A program made the position numbers and the translations under genes. Shown here piece after piece: positions 18,734 through 33,313 of a DNA stretch of 64,000 bases. The notes below the pieces were generated by a model. That model ran no database searches, was not told the origin of the DNA, and saw only the letters and a list, made by a program, of their open reading frames with translations. The stretch comes from Rhizobium indicum (GTDB taxonomy: Bacteria > Pseudomonadota > Alphaproteobacteria > Rhizobiales > Rhizobiaceae): positions 434,001 to 498,000 of the forward strand of contig NZ_CP054021.1 of assembly GCF_005862305.2 (NCBI RefSeq). The letters run 5' to 3'. The first letter of the stretch is position 1; each line of letters starts with the position of its first letter.

Positions 18734-20392
<1,659 letters not shown>

Positions 20393-20771
20393 TTCTCCCT
20401 TTTTTGGTCAGGCGAAGCAAAGCTCAACACTGCAACGGATGCTGAATACGGTCCGACCGAGGTTCTCGAATGCTCTTGAGATAGCCGAGCGAAAGTGCAT
20501 GCCGCGTTGAGAATAACAGGGCCTGTCGGCTTGCCTGGACGCGTACATAAGGCATAACAAATATAAGGAGAGCAAGTATCTTACGGTAACCTACAGGCGA
20601 AACCGCCGATAGGCAGGAACCAATGTCCGGGCGACAGTCGTCCAGAAACACCGATAGCGTGAAGGCGACATCGCCCATATCGGAAATCGGTAGCTTGGCT
20701 TGTCGGGGTCGCCCCCGACGCGGCGAACTCAGTCATGGCGCAGGCCCTGCGAGGCCCGCGCCTGACGCTGA
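20393..20771. other. Intergenic region between the two sulfatases
   Basis: This 379-bp stretch carries the promoter region of the Tat sulfatase and the 3' end region of the larger sulfatase. Besides the motif at 20581-20594, a GC-rich inverted repeat (GGCGCGGGCC with GGCCTGCGCC on the - strand, about 20737-20763) follows the stop of the larger sulfatase gene and may aid transcript termination, but it has no T-tract. No ORF here looks real. Confidence 0.5.
20581..20594 (+). promoter_or_regulatory. Shared island motif, copy 1
   Basis: TTACGGTAACCTAC differs by one base from the copy at 23340. It lies 189 bp upstream of the start of the Tat sulfatase gene, which runs leftward. See the finding on the shared motif. 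Confidence 0.5.
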
Positions 20772-23171
20772 CTAGATTTGCGGCGGCCCAACCTTGACCG
20801 TCAGTTTGTCCAGCGTACCCGTAAACCGGAACGGCACCTGGTAGTCGCTGTCGTCGACAGGACTGCGGGTATCCACCCCCACGTCGAAGGACTCGTCGAC
20901 CGTCACCAGAAACGGGATGGTATGCGGGATCGACTGCTCGGCCACCATCGTGCCATCGACGCTAAGCACACCCTTGCCGCCCTTCCCGTAACCGGGTCCC
21001 TCGTAGGTAAAGTCGAAGACGACGCTGTGTTTGCCTGCTGTCAGCGCGGTCTCGCCGGCCCACCGGAAGCGCTCCAGTCCAAGCAGGTTATAGGTGAAGA
21101 CCGGCTTGCCCTTGAGGAGATAAAGGCCGTAGCCGCCGAAGCGGCCTCCAAGCGTCGCAAGCATTCCGTCTCCGCCGCCCTGCGGGACGTCGACTTCGGC
21201 GGTGATCGTGTAGGAGCGGGCCAGCGGATCGGGCGCCGAGGCCGGTGGCAGGCCCGAGAGTTCGCCTGAGTAGACGAACTCGGTTCGGCCAGCGGTGGCG
21301 CTTGGCCGCGGCGCGGTGGCACGCGAGATGACGGAGTTATCAAGCGGCAACACCTGGTATTTCGCGGCCTCCACGAGGAAGAGCTGCTGCATATCGCGCA
21401 GTTTGTCCGGCTCCTTGGCGGCGAGATCGTTGAACTGCGAGTAGTCCTCGGTCAGGTTGTAGAGTTCCCACTGATAGCCATCGACCACATCGGGCAGTTT
21501 GCCGAGTCCCATCAGCCAGGGCGCGGCGGGTGGGGTCGTGGAGGCGATCCAGCCCTCGTGGTAGATCGCGCGATTGCCGAACATCTCGAAATACTGTGTC
21601 GTGCGTGCAGAGGGGACGTCCTTGGCGCCCTTGGACCAGGTATAGGCCATGCTGACGCCTTCGATCGGCTTTTGGGCGATGCCGTTCACCGTGAGCGGCG
21701 CCTGGATGCCGGTGGCTTCGAGGATCGTCGGCACGATGTCGATCACATGGTGGAACTGGCTGCGGATGCCGCCCTTGTCGGTGATGTGACCCGGCCAAGA
21801 CATCGCCATGCCCTGTCGGGTGCCGCCGAAGTGGGAGGCGACCTGCTTGGTCCATTTGAACGGCGTGTCGAAAGCCCAGGACCAGGCGACTGACATATGT
21901 GGCTCCGTCGTCGGGTCGCCCCAGGCGTCGTAGAATTTCAGCTGGTCGGCGACCGGCATGCTGATGGCCTGGATCGCGGCCAGGTCGAAGGCCGTGCCGA
22001 TGGCCGTACCTTCGGCGCTGGTGCCGTTATCGCCCTCGATATAGATGATCAGGGTATCGTCGAGCTTGCCCTGCTTGCGAACCTCATCGACCACCCGGCC
22101 GATCTCGAAGTCGGCATAGGCGACAAAGGCGGCGTAGACCTCCGCCTGACGGGCGAACATCTTCTTGTCGTCTGCCGATAGCGTATCCCATTTCGGAAGG
22201 TCATCCGGCCACGGCGTCAGCTGGGTATTCTCCGGAACCACGCCGAGCCGTTTCTGGTTGGCGAGAATCTCGTCCCGCATGGCGTTCCAGCCGCCATCGA
22301 ACTTGCCTTTGAACTTCTCGATCCACTCCTTCGTCGGATGGTGCGGGGCATGGGTTGCGCCGGGAACATAGTACATGAAGAACGGCTTGTCCGGCGTCGC
22401 GGCATTCACCTTGCGCAGATAGTCGATGGCGTCATCGGCCATGCCGGTGACCAGATTGTAGTCGGGCTTGTCGAGCCACGGGTAGATCTGGTCGTGGTTG
22501 CGGAACAGCCAGGGCGTCCACTGGTTGGATTCGCCGCCCTGGAAGCCATAGAAATAGTCGAAGCCCATGCCGGAGGGCCACTGGTCGAACGGTCCCGAGG
22601 CGGATAGCGCGTAGGTCGGGGTATTGTGGTTCTTGCCGAGCCATGAGGTGGCATAACCGTGATCCCTGAGTATCGAACCGATCGTGCCGTTGTTCGGGCC
22701 AATAATCGCATCATAGCCGGGATAGCCGGTGGATTGCTCGGCGATCACCCCGAAGCCCGCCGAATGGTGGTTTCGCCCGGTGATGAGAGCGGCGCGCGTG
22801 GGCGAGCACAGCGCGGTGGAGTGGAACTGCGTGAAGCGCAGTCCATTGGCTGCGATCTGATCGAGCGTCGGTGTCGGGATAACGCCGCCGAAGGTGCTGG
22901 AGACGCCATAGCCGGCGTCGTCGGTCATGATCAGCAGTATATTCGGCGCGCCCTTCGGCGGCACCACCTTGGGTGGCCACCACGGAGTCGAGTCCTTGGC
23001 GTCCAGGTTGATGGTTCCGCCGAACGCCGGAGGTGCTGCCGGCAGCGACTGGCCGTTGATCGTCGACGTAGCGCTGGGTGAACCGGTTGCTCCGGTGAGA
23101 TCCTGGGCGGCGGCGGGAAATGCTGAAAAACAACTGGCGGCGAGAACGGCTAGATAAACGCGCGTATTCAT
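20772..23171 (-). CDS. Large exported arylsulfatase
   Basis: A 799-residue sulfatase. The start at 23171 (MNTRVYLAVLAASCFSAFPAAAQ) gives a Sec-type signal peptide and has AAAAGGGAG as ribosome-binding site. The formylglycine motif is Cys122-Ser-Pro-Thr-Arg in ALCSPTRAALITGR; the metal-binding DD is in LLIMTDDAGYG and the later metal site in EGDNGTSAEG. The extra C-terminal domain (about 650-799) is beta-rich (VVFDFTYEGPGYGKGG) and ends in VDDSDYQVPFRFTGTL, as in long PAS-type arylsulfatases. It runs divergently from the formylglycine-generating enzyme, sharing a 275-bp promoter region. Confidence 0.93.
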   Translation of the reverse strand: MNTRVYLAVLAASCFSAFPAAAQDLTGATGSPSATSTINGQSLPAAPPAFGGTINLDAKDSTPWWPPKVVPPKGAPNILLIMTDDAGYGVSSTFGGVIPTPTLDQIAANGLRFTQFHSTALCSPTRAALITGRNHHSAGFGVIAEQSTGYPGYDAIIGPNNGTIGSILRDHGYATSWLGKNHNTPTYALSASGPFDQWPSGMGFDYFYGFQGGESNQWTPWLFRNHDQIYPWLDKPDYNLVTGMADDAIDYLRKVNAATPDKPFFMYYVPGATHAPHHPTKEWIEKFKGKFDGGWNAMRDEILANQKRLGVVPENTQLTPWPDDLPKWDTLSADDKKMFARQAEVYAAFVAYADFEIGRVVDEVRKQGKLDDTLIIYIEGDNGTSAEGTAIGTAFDLAAIQAISMPVADQLKFYDAWGDPTTEPHMSVAWSWAFDTPFKWTKQVASHFGGTRQGMAMSWPGHITDKGGIRSQFHHVIDIVPTILEATGIQAPLTVNGIAQKPIEGVSMAYTWSKGAKDVPSARTTQYFEMFGNRAIYHEGWIASTTPPAAPWLMGLGKLPDVVDGYQWELYNLTEDYSQFNDLAAKEPDKLRDMQQLFLVEAAKYQVLPLDNSVISRATAPRPSATAGRTEFVYSGELSGLPPASAPDPLARSYTITAEVDVPQGGGDGMLATLGGRFGGYGLYLLKGKPVFTYNLLGLERFRWAGETALTAGKHSVVFDFTYEGPGYGKGGKGVLSVDGTMVAEQSIPHTIPFLVTVDESFDVGVDTRSPVDDSDYQVPFRFTGTLDKLTVKVGPPQI

Positions 23172-23339
23172 TGTTGATTGCTCCCTTTTGGACCCAAGGT
23201 AGAAAGGCAGAGCGAGCAATACTTTCCCGCTCTCAATGATGCTCGCATGCGCCGGCGAGAGTCAGATCGGCTGACATAGCCATCAGCTTAGCGATGACAT
23301 TGCAGAGAGTGGCAGATTGCTACCAACGCGTCGCGTATA

Positions 23340-23353
23340 TTACTGTAACCTAC
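23340..23353 (+). promoter_or_regulatory. Shared island motif, copy 2
   Basis: TTACTGTAACCTAC sits 93 bp upstream of the formylglycine-generating enzyme start and 168 bp upstream of the divergent sulfatase start, so one site could control both. Confidence 0.6.
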
Positions 23354-23446
23354 TATAAGAACTGCGGCTCCGAGGGGTAGTTATATAGGTGAATGGGCGG
23401 GGCACGCACCCGTACGTGAACGGCAATAACCTGCGGGAATGACAAA

Positions 23447-24400
23447 ATGACATCCGACGTGCGCGCGACCGACGACGCGGGATTTTCAGGCCTGGTCTGG
23501 GTGGCCGGACGAACCTTCACCATGGGATCGAACGAGCATTATCCGGAGGAAGCGCCTGCTCATCCGGTAGCCGTCGACGGCTTCTGGATCGACGCCACCC
23601 CCGTCACCAACCGCCAGTTCGCTTCGTTCGTCAAAGCCACCGGACATGTGACCGTCGCCGAAAGGGCACCCCGTGCCGCCGACTATCCTGGAGCGCTTCC
23701 TAAAATGCTGCGAGCCGGATCTCTGGTGTTCACGCCGCCGAAAGCCATAGTCGGCCCCGACATTACCCAGTGGTGGTCGTTCAAGTTCGGCGCGGACTGG
23801 CGACACCCTTACGGCGGCCGCACCGACATCCGCGGCAAGCTCGATCATCCCGTCGTCCATGTCGCCTATAGCGACGCCATGGCCTATGCGCTCTGGGCGG
23901 AAAAAGATCTGCCGACCGAGGCAGAGTGGGAACTGGCGGCGTGCGGCGGCCTTGATGATGCGGAATTTGCCTGGGGCGACGAGTTGAACCCGGAAGGAAA
24001 GCTCATGGCCAACACTTGGCAGGGCACCTTCCCTACGCTGAGCACAAAGCCAGCCGGTGCGGACAGAACGTCCCCGGTCGGATCCTTTCCATCAAACGGC
24101 TACGGAATCTACGACATGATCGGCAATGTCTGGGAATGGACCTCTGACTTCTGGTCGACACGCCATCCCGAGCCTGCCAGCCATTCATGCTGCATCCCCA
24201 GCAATCCCCGCGGAGGCGACGCCGACGCCAGCTATGATCCGCGGCTGCCTGACATCAGGATCCCGCGGCGCGTGCTCAAGGGCGGATCCCACCTCTGCGC
24301 GCCGAACTACTGCAAGCGCTATCGTCCCGCCGCCAGACATGCAGAGCCTGAGGACACGTCCACAAGTCATGTCGGCTTCAGATGTGTCAAGCGCGTGTGA
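23447..24400 (+). CDS. Formylglycine-generating enzyme
   Basis: A 317-residue SUMF1/FGE-type sulfatase-modifying enzyme. It oxidises the active-site cysteine of sulfatases to C-alpha-formylglycine in the cytoplasm before export, consistent with no signal peptide here. The family opening (VAGRTFTMGSNEHYPEEAPAH) and the LPTEAEWELAA, NVWEWTSDFW and GFRCVK motifs are present. The two copper/active-site cysteines of true FGEs are at Cys284 and Cys289 in GGSHLCAPNYCKRYR, so this is a catalytic FGE and not one of the many related domains lacking them. Both neighbouring sulfatases carry the C-x-(P/A)-x-R substrate motif. Confidence 0.93.
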   Translation: MTSDVRATDDAGFSGLVWVAGRTFTMGSNEHYPEEAPAHPVAVDGFWIDATPVTNRQFASFVKATGHVTVAERAPRAADYPGALPKMLRAGSLVFTPPKAIVGPDITQWWSFKFGADWRHPYGGRTDIRGKLDHPVVHVAYSDAMAYALWAEKDLPTEAEWELAACGGLDDAEFAWGDELNPEGKLMANTWQGTFPTLSTKPAGADRTSPVGSFPSNGYGIYDMIGNVWEWTSDFWSTRHPEPASHSCCIPSNPRGGDADASYDPRLPDIRIPRRVLKGGSHLCAPNYCKRYRPAARHAEPEDTSTSHVGFRCVKRV

Positions 24401-24597
24401 GGCGGTGTCATGGTCACATGTCGCGTCGGCGGAACAAAAGCCACCGATTGTGACAAGACCTTTCATGACATATCCTTCGTGGTCCGCAGGTTATGGGCGT
24501 ACTCCCGTCGATTGCGGTTAGCAGCGGCAGCGCGAAACTGGAGTTCAAGCGTGTCGGACATGCTCTGAACGGCGAATTCCGCTTTCGTTCCCGTTCC

Positions 24598-24611
24598 TTA
24601 CTGTAAACTAC
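24598..24611 (+). promoter_or_regulatory. Shared island motif, copy 3
   Basis: TTACTGTAAACTAC is located 91 bp upstream of the 24702 gene in the 301-bp gap after the formylglycine-generating enzyme gene. That gap holds no ORF that looks real. Confidence 0.55.
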
Positions 24612-24701
24612 GTTGCTTCCGCCCTATTCCGGATCATCATGCACCACTTATAACGCGATGCGGCCGCCGGACTTGCAGAGGCCGCCTTGGAGGTAGGATG
24701 G

Positions 24702-24974
24702 ATGGATTACGACACACGGTTCGCCAAGCGCATCTTTCCAGCCAGCGCCAAAACCATCGATACATTGGCCGCCCGTGACGATAACTTCCGTGAACTCTGT
24801 GCCGACTTCTCCGTTGCAGATGAATTGCGGAGAAAATGGGAAACATCCTCCGCCGCAGAGCGAAATGAGCGCCACGCGGAATGCGTCGAACTCGTGGAAA
24901 CGCTGCGCAGCGAGATCGAAGCCGCTCTGGAAAGCGCCAGTGTGATCGTGATCAAGCTTCTCCCTCGCCGTTGA
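24702..24974 (+). CDS. Conserved-looking 90-aa protein
   Basis: A small acidic, mostly helical cytoplasmic protein starting MDYDTRFAKRIFPASAKTIDTL. The ATG at 24702 is preceded by GGAGGTAGG, a strong ribosome-binding site. It has no signal peptide or membrane segment and no cysteine pair. I recall similar short proteins in rhizobia, but no named domain. The shared motif 91 bp upstream makes it a probable member of the island regulon. It converges on the HAD hydrolase gene with a 26-bp gap. Confidence 0.65.
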   Translation: MDYDTRFAKRIFPASAKTIDTLAARDDNFRELCADFSVADELRRKWETSSAAERNERHAECVELVETLRSEIEAALESASVIVIKLLPRR

Positions 24975-25000
24975 GGACCAGACTCCGGCATCAAAGACGG

Positions 25001-26005
25001 TTACTTCTGATCGGTCAGATAGATGGTCTTCCAGTCGTCCTTCATGTTGACAACTGTCCACCCCTGAGCCTGTGCTTCGTCCAGGCCCTTGTCGAGCTGG
25101 CCGATGCTGGACTTCCTGTCATAGGCAAATTCGCGCTTGGCGTCGGTGTGATGCACATAGAGGCAGAAGCGTGCACCAGGACCGCTACACGTCCATTGAA
25201 GCATCTGCAGGTCGCCGTCGGAATTGCCAAATGCAGCGATGGGTCGGCGACCGATGAAAGTCTGGATGGCGATCGGTTTGGCCTCCTTGTCGTCATAGAA
25301 AAACAGTTCGGGCTGCTTCACAAGCGCGGGCTTTCCGTCGCGCAGCTCGAACTGCAGCTTGCCGCTGCTGCCGATCACCTGTTCGGGTGGAATGCCATAG
25401 GTCTTGTCGGCGAAGGTGCGCATGAATTCGTTGCCGCCACCGGAAACGATGAAGGTCTTGAAGCCGTTGGCACGCAAATAGTCGAGAAGCTCCACCATCG
25501 GCTGATACGCCATCTCGGTGAACAGCTTGTCCGTCTTGGGGTTCTTGGCTGTCGCAAGCCATTCCTTGACGACCGTTGCGTATTCGTCGGTCGTCAGACC
25601 CGCCTGCGTCTCTCCGACGATTGCAAGCAGCGCCGGAGCGCCGCCCGCAAGCGCACTCTTCAGATCGCCTTTCAATACGGACGCGAAAGGTTCCTTCGTC
25701 TTCCATTCCGGATGCTCGGGTGCGAGAACCTTGACCTGCTCCAGCGCAAAGAAAAGCTGGAAATAGAGCGGCTGCTCGGCCCAGAGCGTCCCATCATTGT
25801 CAAAGGTGGCGATGCGCTCTGCGGGCGGGACGAATTCCGGCGAGCTTTCCTTGGTCACCTTGGCGACGAAGTCGAGGATCGATTGTCTGGTCTTGCCATC
25901 GTTCCAGGATGGCAGCGGCTCCGCCGCCTGGACGATCGTGGCCGCGAAAAATGTGGTGCTGACCAACACCGCCGTGAGATAGGCCAGCTTTGGATTGGTG
26001 TTCAT
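25001..26005 (-). CDS. Exported HAD-family hydrolase
   Basis: A 334-residue haloacid dehalogenase-fold protein with a Sec signal peptide (MNTNPKLAYLTAVLVSTTFF, then AATIVQAAEP). The start at 26005 is chosen because it gives this signal peptide. Motif I is FDNDGT with nucleophile Asp69 and Asp71, motif II is IVSGGGNEF, and the C-terminal acidic motif is GNSDGDLQML. It is therefore a likely periplasmic phosphatase; the substrate is unknown. Its place among sulfatases suggests release of inorganic nutrients from organic esters outside the cytoplasm. Confidence 0.85.
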   Translation of the reverse strand: MNTNPKLAYLTAVLVSTTFFAATIVQAAEPLPSWNDGKTRQSILDFVAKVTKESSPEFVPPAERIATFDNDGTLWAEQPLYFQLFFALEQVKVLAPEHPEWKTKEPFASVLKGDLKSALAGGAPALLAIVGETQAGLTTDEYATVVKEWLATAKNPKTDKLFTEMAYQPMVELLDYLRANGFKTFIVSGGGNEFMRTFADKTYGIPPEQVIGSSGKLQFELRDGKPALVKQPELFFYDDKEAKPIAIQTFIGRRPIAAFGNSDGDLQMLQWTCSGPGARFCLYVHHTDAKREFAYDRKSSIGQLDKGLDEAQAQGWTVVNMKDDWKTIYLTDQK

Positions 26006-26110
26006 GATGAACCCTCTGTCGGAAACATGGACCGGCAGGCGAAGCGACGTTCGGCCCAGACCAACGCCCGTCCGCAACAATATTCGCTCCAAGAGGGCTT
26101 TGCGCGTATC

Positions 26111-26122
26111 ATACTGTAGTAT
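26111..26122. promoter_or_regulatory. ATACTGTAGTAT palindrome, possible motif variant
   Basis: A perfect 12-bp palindrome containing the ACTGTA core of the island motif, 105 bp upstream of the HAD hydrolase start. Read on the - strand it keeps TACAGTA of the motif complement but not the outer TAC. The distance matches that seen for other copies. Confidence 0.35.
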
Positions 26123-26236
26123 CTGTCAGTCCGAGGCAGCGGCAGCGGGCGACCACTCGTTCGGCCGTTGACCGGAAATCCGGCCCGCAACGCGGTCTCC
26201 AATGTGACTGTTGGAACGAACGCGGATCAACAGTGC

Positions 26237-26250
26237 ATACTGTATGTTAC
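26237..26250 (+). promoter_or_regulatory. Shared island motif, variant copy
   Basis: ATACTGTATGTTAC keeps TACTGTA and the final TAC of the motif. It lies 235 bp upstream of the membrane protein gene at 26486 and just before a sulfatase remnant, so it may be a leftover from the lost gene. Confidence 0.35.
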
Positions 26251-26306
26251 TGGCGCGCTCGCGATACGCGCCATACCCTCCCCAAATAAAGCGGTCCACA
26301 TCACAC

Positions 26307-26385
26307 GGAACCGGTGTCGACGATAACGACCACCAGGCACCGTTCGCCTTCGACGGCAAGCTGAACAGCTTGAAAATAGAAACTT
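26307..26385 (+). pseudogene. Sulfatase C-terminal tail remnant
   Basis: Translated in frame, the segment reads GTGVDDNDHQAPFAFDGKLN followed by SLKIE. This lines up without gaps with the end of the large sulfatase at 20772 (VDDSDYQVPFRFTGTLDKLTV). No matching upstream sulfatase sequence or signal peptide is found between it and the HAD gene, so only the last 25 residues or so of a third sulfatase remain. It lies in the 480-bp gap 26006-26485, which otherwise holds only the two motif variants. Confidence 0.6.
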
Positions 26386-26485
26386 CAGCCGCAACCCTGA
26401 GGCAAGAGGGCCAGCGCAGAGCGGTCCGTCACCAGGGCGGCCCGTGCCGAAAGTGACGTTGACCTGGGCACGGGGATTCTGCGCC

Positions 26486-27043
26486 ATGAACACAGCTCAC
26501 CGACGCACACTTCTGACCCTGTTTGCGATCGCCGAGGGTGCGACGGGACTGGGGCTTATCGTGGCGCCGTCGATGCTCTTTGTTCTGCTGTTTGAGACAA
26601 GGCAGGTCGTTTCGGAGGCACCACTGATCGGGCGGATCTGCGGTGCGGCGCTGCTCGCTCTTGCCGCAGCAAGCTGGGGTGCGCGTGACGCCGAAGACAG
26701 GCAAGGCACCCTGGGGCTCCTCGTCGGAGTGACGCTCTACAATTGCCTGACCACGGCCGTCTTGACCTATTCCGCCCTCGTTCTGGAGATGATCGGCATC
26801 CTGTTGTGGCCCGCGATCCTCTATCACGCGGCGACTTCCCTGTGGTGCTTGCTCGCTATCTGGCGGGCGCGTTGGGCCGAGTCGTCGTGGCTCCTTGGGT
26901 GGTCATTTACGGCTTTGGCCGCTTTGGCCGCGGACTGCTACGAGGCGGCGAAGACGCGATCTCCGCTTCTGCGGTTCACTCGCCTGGCGTCCCCTTCCCT
27001 CGATCTGCGAAGCAGTCGAACGGGGCCACATACGGTGCCTTGA
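26486..27043 (+). CDS. Small integral membrane protein
   Basis: A 185-residue hydrophobic protein starting MNTAHRRTLLTLFAIAEGA. About four membrane segments are visible in the first 130 residues (GLGLIVAPSMLFVLLF, ALLALAAASWGA, LGLLVGVTLYNCLTTAVLTY, LLWPAILYHAATSLWCLLAI). The last 40-50 residues (SPLLRFTRLASPSLDLRSS) look unlike a membrane protein and may be a read-through after a frameshift. The start at 26486 is preferred over 26444. No function is known to me. It is followed 94 bp later by the regulator-like gene. Confidence 0.6.
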   Translation: MNTAHRRTLLTLFAIAEGATGLGLIVAPSMLFVLLFETRQVVSEAPLIGRICGAALLALAAASWGARDAEDRQGTLGLLVGVTLYNCLTTAVLTYSALVLEMIGILLWPAILYHAATSLWCLLAIWRARWAESSWLLGWSFTALAALAADCYEAAKTRSPLLRFTRLASPSLDLRSSRTGPHTVP

Positions 27044-27062
27044 TGGACGAGGATCAGTTTCT

Positions 27063-27076
27063 GCGCTAGGTTACAA
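27063..27076 (-). promoter_or_regulatory. Shared island motif, reverse partial copy
   Basis: On the - strand this reads CTTTTGTAACCTAG, matching TGTAACCTA of the motif (10 of 14 positions). It is 61 bp upstream of the regulator-like gene at 27138, which would suit autoregulation. Confidence 0.35.
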
Positions 27077-27137
27077 AAGAGATAGTTAATAAAATCTCTG
27101 GTAGTCACGTACCTCAAGAGCGGGTGAGGAGCGAACC

Positions 27138-28976
27138 GTGCAACATTTATTGCCATCGAGGCGCGACACTGCGCCGGATTCGACGCGACCACCTCCGACC
27201 CACGATGATGTTCGGGCTCAGCTCAAGCGAATCGTTACCAGCTCGCAATTTCCGCATATCGGTCGGAGTGCTGCATTTCTTATCTATGCCGTGGAGGAGA
27301 CGCTTGCAGGCCGCGCAGATCGGATCAAGGGCTACTCTATCGCAGTCGAGGTTTTCAAGCGCTCCAACGGCTTCACGCAGGATGATCCGGTTGTGCGGAT
27401 CGAGGCCGGAAGGCTCAGGCGGGTGCTCGAGCGCTATTATTTTACAGCGGGTCAACGCGATCCGATCCGAATAGACATTCCGAAAGGCGGTTACGTGCCG
27501 ACCTTTGCCTGGAATAATCCGAGTGCTGACAATTTAGATGCTGAAGACCAAAGTCTGCCGTCGGAGCGCGCCTATTCCCTTTTTCCCGGCTTAAGACGGC
27601 ATATGTGGGCAGTGGCCCTTGGGTTGATCGTGATCGTGGGCGGCGCTGCAGCCCTGGCTGGCTTGACCTCCATTCGATTTGGCTCGATCTGGCCCTTGCC
27701 GACTGCCGACATTACAGGATCTGATGGACCGACATTGGTGATCGCTCCATTTGCTAATCTCGGTGATGGTCCTCAGGCGGAACTCTATACGACAGGCCTC
27801 ACCGAGGAACTCCTCACCGCCCTTCCCCGCTTCAAGGAGATCAAAGTCTTCGGTCGCGAGACATCCAGATCGTTGCCGCCAGAGGTGGAGGCATCGCGGA
27901 TTCGCGGAGAACTTGGCGCACGCTTCCTGCTGGCAGGCGGTGTTCGCGTCTCCGGAAGCCGAGTGCGTGTGACGGCACGTCTGCTCGACACGCAGACCGA
28001 TGAGATCCTCTGGTCGCAGACCTACGACGACAACATCGGCGTCCGCGACCTGTTCACCATCCAGTCCGACGTCGCAAACAAGGTTGCGACCGCCGTGGCG
28101 CAGCCCTATGGCATCATGGCCCAGGCCGATGTCTCCAACCCGCCGCCTGATGATCTTGGCATCTACGGCTGCACGCTGAGCTTTTACACTTACCGTGCCG
28201 AGTTGAGCATCGAGCGGCACGAAGAGGTTCGAAACTGCCTCGAAAGCGCTGTCGCCCGCTATCCGTCCTTTGCGACCACCTGGGCGATGTTGTCCATCCT
28301 CTATCTCGACGAGGATCGTTTCAGGTTCAATCGGAAGCCCATTTCGTCCGCGCCGATAGATCGCAGCTTTCAGGCCGCCCGCCGTGCCATTCAACTGGAT
28401 CCCGGCAACACCCGCGCCCTTCAGGCGTTGATGACGGCGTTGTTTTTCAGCCAGCGGGTTCCGGAGGCACTTCAGATCGGCGAACGGGCACTGGCGACCA
28501 ATCCGAACGACACCGAATTGCTAGGAGAGTTTGGTACCCGGGTGGCGATGAGCGGGGAATGGCAGCGCGGGGCAGCGCTGCTGGATCGTGCCATTGCTCT
28601 CAACCCTGCCGGCGGCGGCTACTATCGCGGAACGCGCGCACTTGCAGCCTACATGCTGCACGACGACAAGACCGCGGTCATCGAGATCAGGCAGGCGGAC
28701 CTGCAGAAGTTCCCGCTATTCCATGCGGTGGCTGCCGTCATCTACGTCGACGCCGGAATGATCGAGGACGCCCGCAACGAGGCCTCGCGGTTCAACGAAA
28801 TGAGACCCGACTTCATTCCGAGCATCGTGGCCGAACTCAAGGCGCGCAATTTCCAGCCACAGGATCGGGCACGGATGATTGCCGATCTGCGAACGGCCGG
28901 GCTTCCTGCGATGGACGAGGTGCAGGCGACGATGTCGCTGCCGATCGACGGTTCCAAGGCCCTTCAGCCGCGGTAG
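27138..28976 (+). CDS. Membrane regulator-like protein with TolB-like and TPR domains
   Basis: A 612-residue protein. Residues 24-125 form a conserved region seen at the start of many TPR proteins annotated as adenylate cyclase-like (RAQLKRIVTSSQF, VEETLAGRADRIKGYSIAVE, DPVVRIEAGRLRRVLERYY, IPKGGYVPTF) that looks like a winged-helix DNA-binding domain. A single membrane segment follows at 156-178. A TolB-like domain (VIAPFANLGDG to YDDNIGVRDLFTIQSD) spans about 199-325, and TPR-like helices about 360-600. No cyclase catalytic domain is present. This layout resembles ToxR/CadC-type one-component regulators. It is the only candidate regulator in the island. DNA binding is inferred. Confidence 0.7.
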   Translation: MQHLLPSRRDTAPDSTRPPPTHDDVRAQLKRIVTSSQFPHIGRSAAFLIYAVEETLAGRADRIKGYSIAVEVFKRSNGFTQDDPVVRIEAGRLRRVLERYYFTAGQRDPIRIDIPKGGYVPTFAWNNPSADNLDAEDQSLPSERAYSLFPGLRRHMWAVALGLIVIVGGAAALAGLTSIRFGSIWPLPTADITGSDGPTLVIAPFANLGDGPQAELYTTGLTEELLTALPRFKEIKVFGRETSRSLPPEVEASRIRGELGARFLLAGGVRVSGSRVRVTARLLDTQTDEILWSQTYDDNIGVRDLFTIQSDVANKVATAVAQPYGIMAQADVSNPPPDDLGIYGCTLSFYTYRAELSIERHEEVRNCLESAVARYPSFATTWAMLSILYLDEDRFRFNRKPISSAPIDRSFQAARRAIQLDPGNTRALQALMTALFFSQRVPEALQIGERALATNPNDTELLGEFGTRVAMSGEWQRGAALLDRAIALNPAGGGYYRGTRALAAYMLHDDKTAVIEIRQADLQKFPLFHAVAAVIYVDAGMIEDARNEASRFNEMRPDFIPSIVAELKARNFQPQDRARMIADLRTAGLPAMDEVQATMSLPIDGSKALQPR

Positions 28977-29135
28977 CGCTGCTGTCAGGACAACTAGCAC
29001 AGAACATACCCGATGGTTACACGCGCACGCCGTCGTCTCCGTGTAGGCTGTGGTCGCTGATAATCGTTCTTTCATGGCCGAGACCCAGGGAGCGACCTCA
29101 GTCGTCCGACCAAACCATTTAGAAGGGATTCGTCG

Positions 29136-29882
29136 ATGACCAAAGCACCGCAGCGAGCCTTGCACCCTGCCGTGGCGGCGGTGTCGTCCGCGGCACGCGG
29201 CTTGATGATCATCTTGGGATGTGGATCGGCCGCAAGCGCTGCCGACGCAGACGCCAAGAAGCTGGTGAAAACCATGTCCGACTACCTGGCCGCAGAAAAG
29301 GCGATCTCCTTTTCGTATGACACCAACCTGGAGGTGGTCACCGTCGACCATCAGAAGCTTCTGCTGGCAAGTTCCGGCAAGATCGAAATGGGCCGACCGG
29401 ATAAACTCCGGGTTACCCGGTTTGGTGGGTTCGCCAACGTTGAGGTCACATTCGACGGCAAGACGCTCTCGCTGCTCGGCCAGAACGCCAACCTCTATGC
29501 CCTTGCAGAAGTCCCAGGCACCATAAATCACCTGATCGACGAATTGCGGGACAAGCTCCATAGACCCATACCGGGTGCCGATCTTCTGCTCCCGGATGCC
29601 TATGACGAGCTGATGCGCGACGTGGTCGACGTCAAGGACCTCGGCAGCGGTGTCATCGGCGGCGTCGAATGCGACCACCTTGCATTCCGCACCAAGGAAG
29701 TCGACTGGCAGATATGGATCGCTCAAGGCGAGCATCCGTATCCCTGTCGATATGTCATTACCGCAAGCCAGGTGGATCAAGGCCCACAATACAGCATCCA
29801 GATCAGTGACTGGAAGACAGGCACCGATGTCGTTGCCAACGATTTCGGTTTCAAAAACACCACGAACGCCAAGTCGACCTGA
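29136..29882 (+). CDS. DUF2092 periplasmic protein
   Basis: A 248-residue DUF2092 protein. An N-terminal hydrophobic stretch with AASAADADAKK suggests export. The body has the LolA/LppX-like pattern of the family: KLVKTMSDYLAAEKAISFSYD, then SSGKIEMGRPDKLRV and FDGKTLSLLGQNANLYA. The fold is a half-barrel that binds lipids in relatives; the ligand here is unknown. It is the first gene of a rightward group with the 70-aa peptide gene 55 bp downstream. It lies 159 bp after the regulator-like gene. Confidence 0.8.
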   Translation: MTKAPQRALHPAVAAVSSAARGLMIILGCGSAASAADADAKKLVKTMSDYLAAEKAISFSYDTNLEVVTVDHQKLLLASSGKIEMGRPDKLRVTRFGGFANVEVTFDGKTLSLLGQNANLYALAEVPGTINHLIDELRDKLHRPIPGADLLLPDAYDELMRDVVDVKDLGSGVIGGVECDHLAFRTKEVDWQIWIAQGEHPYPCRYVITASQVDQGPQYSIQISDWKTGTDVVANDFGFKNTTNAKST

Positions 29883-29937
29883 CGAAGCTTGCCGATATTG
29901 ACGAGCTTCCTGATCACTTTGCCATGGGAGGCACCAA

Positions 29938-30150
29938 ATGACCGTCGTCAGAAAACTGAAACTCCTGCTGCTTGCTGCGGCGATCGGCGTGTCCGGCCTC
30001 GAACTTGGAAACGGACTTTCGATTCCGGGACTGAATGGCGTCTTCACGCCGGCAGAGGCCAGGATCGGCCGCCCGCTGACGCCGGTGAGTGTCGCTGGAG
30101 TTGCGCGCCGCACGGTCCGGCGTTGCGCCGTCGGCGTCTATTATTGCTAG
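29938..30150 (+). CDS. Short exported protein ending in Tyr-Tyr-Cys
   Basis: A 70-residue protein starting MTVVRKLKLLLLAAAIGVSG, a Sec-type signal, with probable cleavage after AEA near residue 42. The mature part would be under 30 residues, basic (VARRTVRRC) and ending VYYC with two cysteines. The gene lies between the DUF2092 and lipoprotein-hydrolase genes on the same strand, with a ribosome-binding site (GGGAGG) before the ATG. I do not recognise a family, but I recall short proteins of this type next to DUF2092 genes. Confidence 0.6.
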   Translation: MTVVRKLKLLLLAAAIGVSGLELGNGLSIPGLNGVFTPAEARIGRPLTPVSVAGVARRTVRRCAVGVYYC

Positions 30151-30202
30151 AAAAACAGGCCCGGCGAACGCATTCGACAAGCGCCCAGCATGAGGGAAAT
30201 CG

Positions 30203-31510
30203 GTGGGAAGCAAAAACAACACGGGAATAGGGTCGATAGTTGCCGGGTATGTTCGGTGGCTTCTGCTGTGCGCATTGATCGTCATTCTGCCTGGGTGCGG
30301 CGGTCATCCGAAGGATGTGATGACGCCTGTTGCAGACACGTCTCCGAAGTCGACCAAGGTCAACTTGCTGATCGCCACGACACGCAGCAGGTCTCCGGTG
30401 CCAGGAGAGATGTTCAACGGAGAACGGGCGCGGACCCCGGCATTCGCCGATATCACCGTGTCCATCCCACCGAACACGATCCGCAAGGAGGGAGAGGTCG
30501 CCTGGCCAAAGAGGCTTCCCTCCAATCCGGCGACAGATTTCGCGACTTTAAAGGCCGACGATCTCAATATCGATGAGGCCAAACGCTGGCTGAGCGCCAG
30601 CGTCCGCAAGAGCCCCGACCACAGTGTCCTGGTGTTCATCCATGGTTTCAACAACCGGTTCGAAGACTCCGTCTACCGCTTCGCCCAGATCGTTCAGGAC
30701 TCAGGTCTGCACAGCGCTCCCGTGCTGGTGACCTGGCCGTCGCGTGGCAGCCTTCTCGCCTACGGCTATGATCGGGAGAGCACGAACTATACGCGAAATG
30801 CTCTGGAGACACTCTTCCAGTATCTCGCAAAGGATCCGGAAGTGAAGGAGGTGTCCATCCTCGCTCATTCCATGGGGAACTGGCTGGCGTTGGAATCGCT
30901 GCGCCAGATGGCCATTCGTAACGGCCGACTGCCCGCCAAGTTCAAGAATGTCATGCTCGCGGCTCCGGACGTCGATGTCGACGTGTTCCGCCAGCAGATC
31001 GGCGACATGGGCAAACAGCATCCGCAGTTCACCTTGTTCGTATCCCGTGACGACCGTGCACTGGCGTTCTCGCGTCGGGTCTGGGGTGACGTATCCCGAC
31101 TTGGAGCCATCGATCCCGAACAGGCGCCCTACAAGGCGGAGTTCGAGGCCAACAAGATCGTGGTGATCGATCTCACCAAGATCAAATCTGGCGATCGGAT
31201 GAACCACGGCAAATTCGCGGAATCGCCGCAGATCGTTCAGCTCATCGGATCACGCATCTCGGAGGGGCAGACGCTCACCGACAGCAGGATTGGACTTGGC
31301 GACCAGATTCTGGTGGCGACAACCGGAACGGCGGCGGCAGCCGGGAACGTTGCTGGACTGATCCTTGCCGCTCCCGTCGCTGCTGTCGATCAGGACACGC
31401 GGGACAATTACGCCGGCCAGGTCAGTGGCCTGATGGGCACTGCCAAACCGCAGCCAGCAATGTTGAAAAACTGCGACGAGGTACGGCCAACGCCGAGCTG
31501 CAAGCCCTAA
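30203..31510 (+). CDS. Lipoprotein alpha/beta hydrolase (DUF900-like)
   Basis: A 435-residue alpha/beta hydrolase of the DUF900 type. It starts at a GTG preceded by GAGGGA. The N-terminal signal ends in a lipobox ILPGC (Cys32), so it is likely a membrane-anchored lipoprotein. The oxyanion-hole region is VLVFIHGFNNRFEDS and the nucleophile elbow is AHSMGNW with Ser223; the catalytic histidine is probably that of MNHGKF near residue 335. Substrate unknown; lipases and esterases are the usual guess. It belongs to the rightward group 29136-31510. Confidence 0.8.
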   Translation: MGSKNNTGIGSIVAGYVRWLLLCALIVILPGCGGHPKDVMTPVADTSPKSTKVNLLIATTRSRSPVPGEMFNGERARTPAFADITVSIPPNTIRKEGEVAWPKRLPSNPATDFATLKADDLNIDEAKRWLSASVRKSPDHSVLVFIHGFNNRFEDSVYRFAQIVQDSGLHSAPVLVTWPSRGSLLAYGYDRESTNYTRNALETLFQYLAKDPEVKEVSILAHSMGNWLALESLRQMAIRNGRLPAKFKNVMLAAPDVDVDVFRQQIGDMGKQHPQFTLFVSRDDRALAFSRRVWGDVSRLGAIDPEQAPYKAEFEANKIVVIDLTKIKSGDRMNHGKFAESPQIVQLIGSRISEGQTLTDSRIGLGDQILVATTGTAAAAGNVAGLILAAPVAAVDQDTRDNYAGQVSGLMGTAKPQPAMLKNCDEVRPTPSCKP

Positions 31511-31558
31511 CTCCGACATCGGCAGGACGAGCGCGGCAATGCCGCAGACAGACAGATA

Positions 31559-31572
31559 TTACTGTAACATAC
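31559..31572 (+). promoter_or_regulatory. Shared island motif, copy 4
   Basis: TTACTGTAACATAC lies 100 bp upstream of the outer-membrane protein gene at 31673, nearly the same distance as the copies before 23447 and 24702. Confidence 0.6.
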
Positions 31573-31672: not shown

Positions 31673-32461
31673 ATGACGGCTTTTCTTCTACGCGCGGCAG
31701 TCCTTTGCGCGGGTCTCGTAGCCTCCTCGCCCGCCTGGGCAGCCGATCCGACGCCGCTGACACCCGATGCCAAAGTGGTCGAGAGCCCGAGCGGTTGGAC
31801 GTTCACCGTCGCGCCGTATTTCTGGATGGCGGGGATATCCGGAGACATTGCACAGTTCGGATTGCCGGAGGTTCATATCGACTCCGATTTCGACGACATC
31901 CTGCAGAACCTCGATTTCGCCTTCATGGCCGCGGGTGAAGCGCGGTACGACCGGTTCAGCATCTTCGGCGACATCATCTACACCAAGCTTGGCGCAGACG
32001 CGAATACGCCGCTTGGCATCCTCGCCGACAGCGTCGACGTCACCTCAAAGACCTTCGCCGGACTTCTCGGGGTCGGCTACTCGGTGCTGGAGGACCAGTC
32101 GGGACACCTCGATGTCGTCGGCGGCATCCGGGTGTGGTCGGTCGACACCAACATCTCCTTCAATGGCGGGATCCTCGGTGGCGTCGAGCAAGATGACAGC
32201 GCGACCTGGGTCGACGGTCTGGTGGGCGTCCGAGGCAACTACTTCTTCACGCCGGAGATCTATCTGACAGGATGGGGTCTCGTCGGCGCCGGCGGCGCGG
32301 ATCTCGACTGGGATGTGGCGCTCGCACTCGGCTACAAGTTCACCGACACGATCTCAGCCGTTGCGGGATACCGCGCACTCGGCGTCGACTACGACAACGA
32401 CGGCTTCGTCTTCGACGTCGTCGAGCAGGGTCCGATCCTCGGCGTCGTCATCCACTTCTGA
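31673..32461 (+). CDS. Outer-membrane beta-barrel protein
   Basis: A 262-residue protein with a signal peptide (MTAFLLRAAVLCAGLVASSP, AWAADP), then alternating hydrophobic strands (WTFTVAPYFWMAGISG, RFSIFGDIIYTKLG, GLVGVRGNYFFTPEIYLTG) and a terminal aromatic pair (VVIHF) as in outer-membrane barrels sorted by BamA. The predicted product is a small eight-stranded barrel. Its closest family is not certain. It precedes the second outer-membrane gene by 48 bp and the pair probably forms a transcript under the motif at 31559. Confidence 0.75.
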   Translation: MTAFLLRAAVLCAGLVASSPAWAADPTPLTPDAKVVESPSGWTFTVAPYFWMAGISGDIAQFGLPEVHIDSDFDDILQNLDFAFMAAGEARYDRFSIFGDIIYTKLGADANTPLGILADSVDVTSKTFAGLLGVGYSVLEDQSGHLDVVGGIRVWSVDTNISFNGGILGGVEQDDSATWVDGLVGVRGNYFFTPEIYLTGWGLVGAGGADLDWDVALALGYKFTDTISAVAGYRALGVDYDNDGFVFDVVEQGPILGVVIHF

Positions 32462-32509
32462 GAACGACGTCTGGGACAGCAGATCGAGTTTTGTACGGTG
32501 GAGACGTCA

Positions 32510-33313
32510 ATGAAGCTCATGATTTTTCGGCTGATGCAGCTTGCCGCGGCGCTGGTTCTGTCATCAGGTGCAGCCAACGCCCAGTCGAGCGAAGAACTCG
32601 CGAAGAAGCTGTCGAATCCGATCGCTTCGCTGATCAGCGTCCCGTTCCAGTTCAACTATGACCACGGCTACGGTCCCGAAGATGGTGACAAGGCAACGCT
32701 GAACATCCAGCCTGTCATTCCATTCTCTCTGAACGAGGACTGGAACCTCATATCGAGGACCATCCTCCCGGTCACATGGCAGAACGACATCGCCGGGCCA
32801 TCAGGAACGCAGTTCGGTCTCGGCGACACGTTGCAGAGTTTCTTTCTCTCCCCTGCTAAACCGACGGAGACCGGTATCGTCTGGGGTGCCGGACCGGTGT
32901 TCCTCCTTCCCACCGCGACCGACGAGCTCCTCGGTGGCGGCAAATGGGGCGCTGGACCGACAGCAGTCGTTCTCAAACAGGACGGCCCCTGGACTTACGG
33001 CATTCTTGGGAACCACATCTGGTCGTTCGCTGGTCAAAGCGACCGCGAAGATGTGAGTTCGACGTTCCTCCAGCCGTTCATCTCCTACACGACCAAGGAC
33101 GCCTGGACGTTCTCGCTGAATACGGAGTCCACCTATAACTGGGAAACGAACAATTGGTCGGTTCCAATCAACTTCGCAGTCGCCAAGCTGATCACCATCG
33201 ATAAGCAGCCGATCAGCCTGACGGCAGGTATCCGCTATTGGGCAGACGCTCCGGAGAACGGCCCGGAAGGAGTTGGCTTCCGGCTCGCGCTCACGTTCCT
33301 CTTTCCAAAGTGA
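32510..33313 (+). CDS. Outer-membrane transporter-like protein
   Basis: A 267-residue protein starting MKLMIFRLMQLAAALVLSSG (signal peptide, cleaved after ANA). The body (NPIASLISVPFQFNYDHGYG, NIQPVIPFSLNEDWNLISRT) matches a group of uncharacterised outer-membrane proteins annotated as transporters or neuromedin U-like. It ends ALTFLFPK. The ATG at 32510 is preceded by GGTGGAG; a GTG at 32498 is in frame but overlaps that site. It is the last island gene; the 105 bp between it and the right repeat hold nothing I recognise. Confidence 0.75.
   Translation: MKLMIFRLMQLAAALVLSSGAANAQSSEELAKKLSNPIASLISVPFQFNYDHGYGPEDGDKATLNIQPVIPFSLNEDWNLISRTILPVTWQNDIAGPSGTQFGLGDTLQSFFLSPAKPTETGIVWGAGPVFLLPTATDELLGGGKWGAGPTAVVLKQDGPWTYGILGNHIWSFAGQSDREDVSSTFLQPFISYTTKDAWTFSLNTESTYNWETNNWSVPINFAVAKLITIDKQPISLTAGIRYWADAPENGPEGVGFRLALTFLFPK

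Follow-up and report, generated by a model that had tools for sequence, protein, structure and literature searches.

A two-part operator at cell-envelope genes of Rhizobium and its relatives, with a membrane-anchored regulator family as its most likely reader

PhoB activates transcription from an operator abutting the -35 position, and regulators of the HilA/EilA type combine a winged helix with tetratricopeptide repeats (TPRs). In the membrane-anchored regulators CadC of Escherichia coli and ToxR of Vibrio cholerae, an N-terminal cytoplasmic winged helix is joined by one membrane helix to a large C-terminal region, and each operator holds two half-sites. The CadC site is described in an excerpt of PMC5430869 as AT-rich and quasi-palindromic, with two DNA-binding domains (DBDs) modelled head to head, and its Cad1 site is placed there at -153 to -113; for ToxR, an excerpt of PMC8517210 gives the site TNAAA-N5-TNAAA, which a title cited in it terms a direct repeat. 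Here we analyse a recurrent motif and its proposed regulator in 64,000 nucleotides of Rhizobium indicum (contig NZ_CP054021.1, positions 434,001 to 498,000; hereafter the window, whose positions are given without prefix). The motif lies in an island encoding two sulfatases, a formylglycine-generating (sulfatase-activating) enzyme (FGE), a 90-aa protein (p90), outer-membrane-like proteins and, at 27138, the proposed regulator (Table 1).

The motif is a real two-part operator, placed ahead of the promoters that serve cell-envelope genes in Rhizobium and its relatives; its reader is most likely the little-studied family of membrane-anchored regulators typified by 27138. The operator, its regulon, its co-occurrence and linkage with the regulator gene and its fixed promoter geometry were computed directly; that it serves a membrane-anchored one-component activator family including 27138 has, in our estimate, a probability of about 0.83. 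The system is most likely a variant of membrane-anchored one-component regulators that act as activators. Its predicted layout resembles that of CadC and ToxR described above, but the 27138 DBD has no Pfam match, the half-sites are GTAN3TAC and not AT-rich, the operator abuts the -35 position, unlike Cad1, and the C-terminal part is TPR/FlgO-like, with a multi-gene, multi-replicon regulon and p90 as a putative partner. With PhoB/OmpR response regulators it has in common the predicted DBD fold and an operator abutting the -35 position; it differs in lacking a receiver domain and in its mostly inverted, not direct, repeats with a 1-bp spacer and a 10-bp period. Compared with HilA/EilA, a membrane segment stands between DBD and TPRs, and the one NCBIfam match to that type, in the regulator of cluster B, misses the DBD. 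A search of open-licence PMC articles for the motif letters found nothing on rhizobia, and the titles and abstract openings of the open-licence PMC articles searched held no description of this regulator or operator.

In the window, the four strong copies of a 14-bp motif reported in an earlier note, made from the letters of the window, are all in place (20581, 23340, 24598 and 31559). With up to three mismatches the 14-mer has six matches, every one inside the island, to which the note had indeed restricted it; shuffled sequences averaged 0.5 matches and never exceeded 3. Two of the six are opposite-strand readings of palindromic copies, so the 14-mer is part of a palindrome. The motif is thus real, but its unit is not the 14-mer: the full operator is 19 bp long, GTANNNTAC-N-GTANNNTAC, of which the 14-mer makes up most, and its usual form is the near-palindrome GTAtgTTACnGTAAcaTAC. 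Allowing two mismatches, GTANNTTACNGTAANNTAC occurs four times in the window against none in 100 Markov shuffles, and GTANNNTACNGTANNNTAC five times against a shuffle mean of 0.09. The motif ends 93, 90 and 100 bp before the start codons at 23447, 24702 and 31673, so that the 91-100 bp stated for three copies was right to within a base, and the 20581 copy precedes sulfatase 1 by about 190 bp. The weaker variants fared unevenly. That at 26111 belongs to a 2-mismatch site (26106-26124) pointing toward the minus-strand HAD-phosphatase gene, likely a target that the note had missed; that at 26237 is one good half-site plus TAC (3 mismatches), with A at +34 and T at +38, the promoter positions discussed below, properly placed on neither side, partial matches apart; and the reversed one at 27063 is a half-site at best and is to be dropped. 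The suggestion that the regulator gene stands under its own motif finds no support in the window: 26601-27140 contains no site with up to four mismatches, which also rules out the 27063 copy as its control site.

A genome-wide scan, named in the note as a check, found 13 copies of the 19-mer with at most two mismatches in the 7.53-Mb genome (five exact, six with one mismatch, two with two). The reversed pattern has no match there at up to one mismatch; at three mismatches it occurs in 128 places against 36 for the motif, so that 3-mismatch sites carry no weight alone. Ten of the 13 copies adjoin 27138, its close paralogues or a DBD remnant, the other three being C1:156961, C5:309468 and C5:300513. 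Full-length close paralogues of 27138 are encoded at C1:4852939 (65%) and C2:963520 (59%), the truncated regulator at C2:989566 retains a DBD with 63% identity, and two 3-mismatch sites (C2:442465 and 447621) are close to a more distant relative, at C2:448161 (26%). The clusters share paralogous families, among them DUF900, DUF2092, DUF1254, MscS channels, outer-membrane proteins and the 90-aa family, and the regulon reaches clusters on other replicons.

The truncated DBD (L020 12567-13413, equivalent to C2:989566-990412, boundaries approximate) continues, in a different frame, into the 3' part of a gene for an outer-membrane protein, which looks as though the rest of the regulator had been lost by deletion. 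The p90 copy next to the cluster-C regulator (C2:963092-963338) is broken into two overlapping pieces, one with a stop codon, and by reading, the C5 DUF900 hydrolase seems split in two open reading frames (ORFs; L021 9578-10117 and 10193-10888), possibly by a frameshift.

The operator co-occurs with the regulator. Among 60 Rhizobium genomes, 44 carry a relative of the regulator (E <= 1e-80); the motif (up to one mismatch) is present in 35 of these and in none of the 16 without one, among the matches listed (Fisher 1.4e-8, phylogeny ignored). In the nine regulator-bearing genomes that lack the motif (G012, G014, G016, G017, G019, G023, G032, G041 and G046) the regulators are only 35-39% identical; four others (G007, G027, G045 and G054) have the motif although their regulators are no better than that. 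The reversed control was also present in 26 of the 60 genomes, among the matches listed. A family-wide scan of 247 Rhizobiaceae genomes returned 68 exact sites, of which 29 do not belong to a separate GTACnGTAC type. For 21 of the 29 a listed DBD gene is no more than 15 kb away, among the matches listed; the division was made after the site list was seen, and without it 21 of the 68 sites have a DBD gene nearby. The GTACCGTACnGTACGGTAC-like exact sites of many Rhizobiaceae were set aside as another element, none of the 39 being within 20 kb of a typed DBD gene among the matches listed; this element is mostly present as a single copy per genome (e.g. G136 C7:88053 and G144 C1:2664175). In other families of the order the motif, at up to one mismatch, was seen in 4 of 40 genomes against 18 of 40 for the reversed control, among the matches listed, and there is no evidence for the motif there.

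Conservation at related loci, whose absence upstream of orthologous genes the note had named as damaging, was evident. Named genomes were searched with the own-genome regulators and the best 80 of 344 relatives taken, so that the loci, some of them overlapping, were chosen by similarity to the regulator; they come from Rhizobium, Ensifer, Phyllobacterium, Mesorhizobium, Microvirga, Bosea, Methylocella, Aurantimonas and others. The laboratory strain R. johnstonii 3841 carries two relatives, with 92% and 59% identity, on NC_008380 at about 2.38 and 3.04 Mb. A site with at most one mismatch lies within 10 kb in 71 of the 80 loci, and with at most two in 77, against none at either level in Markov shuffles of the same loci. 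The 1.65 Mb of loci held 48, 81 and 31 sites with 0, 1 and 2 mismatches, and the shuffles none. Upstream of the regulators themselves, a site with up to two mismatches occurs within 450 bp in 57 of 83 cases, compared with 4.3% of 3,915 background windows; the 26 without one include the orthologues of the window's own regulator and those of S. meliloti pSymA.

The spacing of the half-sites is strict. When the 80 loci are taken together with the window and seven stretches of the own genome, and overlapping loci are counted, GTANNNTAC-N-GTANNNTAC has 96 exact matches at a 1-bp spacer and none at spacers of 0 or 2-7. Their orientation varies: at least 63 of 161 distinct sites with up to one mismatch have the inner triplets KGT and ACM of an inverted repeat, including 32 perfect palindromes, and a direct-repeat form, GTATGTTACnGTAGGTTAC, stands upstream of five of seven Microvirga regulators. 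In four loci, two DBDs occur in tandem in one chain (L046 10004-10771, L066 10001-10696, L073 10001-10759 and L091 10001-10732). These four regulators have no upstream site with up to one mismatch; in L066, L073 and L091 a site with rearranged inner triplets lies just downstream of the regulator gene. By eye only, the S. meliloti pSymA regulators (L107 and L108) resemble this type.

What the operator faces was assessed at 131 distinct sites of the 80 loci, with ORFs picked mechanically here and in the promoter analysis. The sites face the regulator (43), the 90-aa family (36), HlyD (14), DUF900 (13), DUF1254 (10), FGE (7), DUF3300 (6), outer-membrane protein (6) and others, with 11 sites facing none and 20 calls unlabelled; the cluster-B 90-aa query, read out of frame, contributed no label, and its single match in a further search was left unused. 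The ORFs cover 88% of the DNA, yet 37 sites lie inside them and 94 outside or within 30 bp of an ORF end.

Toward targets, the operator keeps a fixed distance to a -10 element. Counted from the operator centre, A at +34 and T at +38 (hexamer +33 to +38) are present in 26 of 37 non-redundant target-facing sequences, the same pair at other offsets averaging 4.5% with a maximum of 16%. The offset was derived from largely the same rows as those scored; in split-half checks it was recovered in 5 of 5. With p90 targets removed, 9 of 19 sequences retain it; tolerating a shift of one base in either direction raises this to 17 of 19 (control mean 14%, maximum 37%). Among regulator-facing sides, the fixed -10 is present in 0 of 16 whose start codon is 30-80 bp away and in 1 of 11 beyond 150 bp (two of 29 rows fell outside both distance classes); sides without a labelled gene have it in 26 of 85. 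The operator is directly upstream of the -35 position, where the -35 would begin right after it; T at +10, in 24 of the 37, indicates that this element is only partly conserved. The start site would lie about 45 bp from the operator centre, and an operator abutting the -35 position with fixed -10 spacing suggests an activator-like layout.

By reading, 10 of 34 sides in the own genome (17 sites, the 13 and four weaker ones) have the fixed -10, all 10 facing a gene. In the window these are operator 2 toward sulfatase 2 (-10-like CACTCT; toward FGE not at the exact offset), operator 3 toward p90, the weak operator toward the HAD gene (TATTGT) and operator 4 toward the outer-membrane gene; the geometry is partial from operator 1 toward sulfatase 1 (T at +28 and +38, no A at +34). 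At operator C1:4861470 it faces a divergent glycoside-hydrolase gene, and a DUF3300-DUF2950 pair starts about 190 bp away. An excerpt of a 2015 article (PMC4653623) describes the DUF3300/DUF2950 pair as predicted-secreted and induced in both RNA-seq studies used, and offers no other functional clue.

Taken together, the own-genome copies, the other genera, the promoter geometry and the co-occurrence with the 27138 protein strongly support a shared operator for the sulfatases, FGE, p90 and the outer-membrane genes, as the note had proposed. Its "one regulator" may instead be a family, since three full-length close paralogues, 27138 included, share the operator.

The regulator DBD was predicted at a pLDDT of 92.5, and in a VIA-align comparison of the predicted domain the first 18 rows are all response-regulator DBDs. 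By sequence, residues 15-130 matched no Pfam family at E up to 1, and the sole match of the DBD among PDB sequences was an RNA polymerase chain at E 0.76. One hydropathy membrane segment (155-182) follows the DBD, and the TPR and weak FlgO matches are C-terminal to it. Each of the four own-genome regulators tested has one such segment; of six other relatives, three have one, two a second, weaker one and one (L072) none. The full-length protein contains no receiver domain by Pfam. In the cluster-B regulator the TPR part weakly matches NCBIfam HilA/EilA (E 3.9e-4; 18.9 bits, where the cut-off is 589). Many plasmid records label relatives 'adenylate cyclase'; neither Pfam nor NCBIfam finds a cyclase domain, and the label, which probably derives from TolB-like/TPR sequence common to some cyclases, looks wrong. 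The winged helix predicted to be OmpR/PhoB-like, the single membrane segment and the TPRs point to a ToxR/CadC-like mode of working.

Table 1. Operators and genes of the island, and copies of the 19-mer in the own genome (replicon:position)
Feature	Position	Strand	Remarks
Operator 1	20576..20594	-	GTATCTTACGGTAACCTAC (plus strand), 0 mismatches; upstream of minus-strand sulfatase 1
Operator 2	23335..23353	.	GTATATTACTGTAACCTAC, 0 mismatches; between divergent sulfatase 2 (-) and FGE (+)
Operator 3	24593..24611	+	GTTCCTTACTGTAAACTAC, 1 mismatch; upstream of 90-aa gene; -10-like CATCAT at fixed distance
Weak operator	26106..26124	-	AGATACTACAGTATGATAC (minus strand), 2 mismatches to GTAN3TAC-N-GTAN3TAC; ~100 bp upstream of HAD gene
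Operator 4	31554..31572	+	AGATATTACTGTAACATAC, 2 mismatches; upstream of outer-membrane gene pair; -10-like CAGAGT at fixed distance
Proposed regulator	27138..28976	+	Predicted N-terminal winged helix ~22-125, membrane segment 155-182; matches to TPR (clear) and FlgO (weak)
p90	24702..24974	+	90-aa helical protein
Sulfatase 1	18734..20392	-	PF00884; C-x-A-x-R (CTAGR) active-site motif
Sulfatase 2	20772..23219	-	PF00884; C-x-P-x-R (CSPTR) active-site motif; start probably ~23171
FGE	23447..24400	+	PF03781, E 8e-77
HAD-type phosphatase	25001..26005	-	PF12710; signal-like N-terminus
DUF2092 periplasmic protein	29136..29882	+	PF09865; downstream of regulator
DUF900 alpha/beta hydrolase	30203..31510	+	PF05990
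Outer-membrane-like protein	31673..32461	+	Weak DUF481; first gene behind operator 4
Outer-membrane-like protein (by reading)	32498..33313	+	No Pfam match; probably co-transcribed; homologues are targets elsewhere
Own-genome copies (C1, early part)	C1:156961; C1:454576, 457335, 458593, 465554 (the last four in the window)		19-mer scan, up to 2 mismatches
Own-genome copies (others)	C1:4854753, 4855149, 4861470; C2:963430, 986037, 987469; C5:309468, 300513		19-mer scan, up to 2 mismatches

The Rhizobium genomes with a member of the p90 family are precisely the 44 of 60 that carry the regulator, and at many loci the p90 and regulator genes point away from each other, the operator lying between them. 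The p90 protein belongs to no known Pfam or NCBIfam family, and a protein search gave five matches, none with a family or functional name; its predicted fold, a helical bundle ending in a long hairpin and without a winged helix, had no confident PDB match (best E 1.9). We regard p90 as a partner of the regulator or else as its most basic output. FGE converts the C-x-P/A-x-R motif of sulfatases, and both sulfatases carry it, so joint control with FGE makes sense. Much of the remaining regulon is envelope-facing by family. A 412-aa plus-strand ORF opposite the HAD gene (24881-26119) has no Pfam match and is probably spurious.

Binding by the regulator, activation, topology and signal are what we infer beyond this, and they could be combined as follows. 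A cytoplasmic OmpR/PhoB-like winged helix would be connected, through a single transmembrane helix, with FlgO/TolB-like and TPR sequence in the periplasm. As a dimer, or with two DBDs, the regulator would bind the two GTAN3TAC half-sites one base apart, on an operator that abuts the -35 position and is centred at about -45 from the presumed start site. The periplasmic part may sense an envelope or extracellular signal, upon which RNA polymerase would be recruited to weak envelope-gene promoters, activating the sulfatases and FGE, the HAD phosphatase, outer-membrane proteins, DUF900, DUF1254, an HlyD exporter and the putative partner p90.

The same regulators might instead repress from this operator, with the signal relieving repression. 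Many palindromic operators are repressor sites, and regulator-facing sites, which often stand just some 50 bp before the start codon and have no -10 at the fixed offset, would fit auto-repression there. At targets, however, the operator lies wholly upstream of the -35 with fixed spacing to the conserved -10, and the partial conservation of the -35 itself is the layout of a polymerase-contacting activator; repression is an unlikely account. It is less probable still that p90 or another cluster protein, and not the winged-helix protein, binds the operator. The identical distribution of the p90 family, and the rank of its genes as the second commonest facing a site, speak for such a role, but p90 is predicted to be a helical bundle of no family, and the island proteins scanned matched no known DNA-binding family, a DNA-binding fold being predicted only in the 27138 protein.

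Near-palindromes are also typical of TetR- or GntR-like families, and the 27138 family was chosen with no genome-wide screen of all regulators behind the choice, so an unlinked palindrome-binding regulator might own the sites and the clusters merely co-travel. We give this little credence: the motif is missing from all 16 genomes without a 27138-type regulator, among the matches listed, sites adjoin DBD genes in several genera, and some are direct, not inverted, repeats. Nor, given that the clusters are paralogous, would it be strange for a non-regulatory sequence to have spread by cluster duplication; yet the copies precede unrelated gene families, keep the fixed -10 spacing and avoid the mechanically picked ORFs as described above, which makes this explanation scarcely credible. 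Operation by a membrane-anchored activator family including 27138 thus remains our preferred reading.

More tentatively, and with rather less than even confidence, the system could be a previously undescribed module of the Rhizobiales, comprising a Pfam-less winged-helix membrane activator, an obligate 90-aa helical protein as cytoplasmic co-regulator and the shared GTAN3TAC-N-GTAN3TAC operator. Its duplicated chromosome and plasmid copies might cross-talk over envelope and sulfate-ester functions, and one branch would have fused DBDs and a rearranged operator.

The analysis brings proteins of unknown function (DUF1254, DUF900, DUF2092, p90 and others), together with sulfatases, on several replicons into one testable regulon, which gains a defined operator and a candidate regulator whose present label is often 'adenylate cyclase'. 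The inverted, direct and rearranged half-sites, with single and fused DBDs, form a natural series in which to study how pairs of winged helices read two half-sites.

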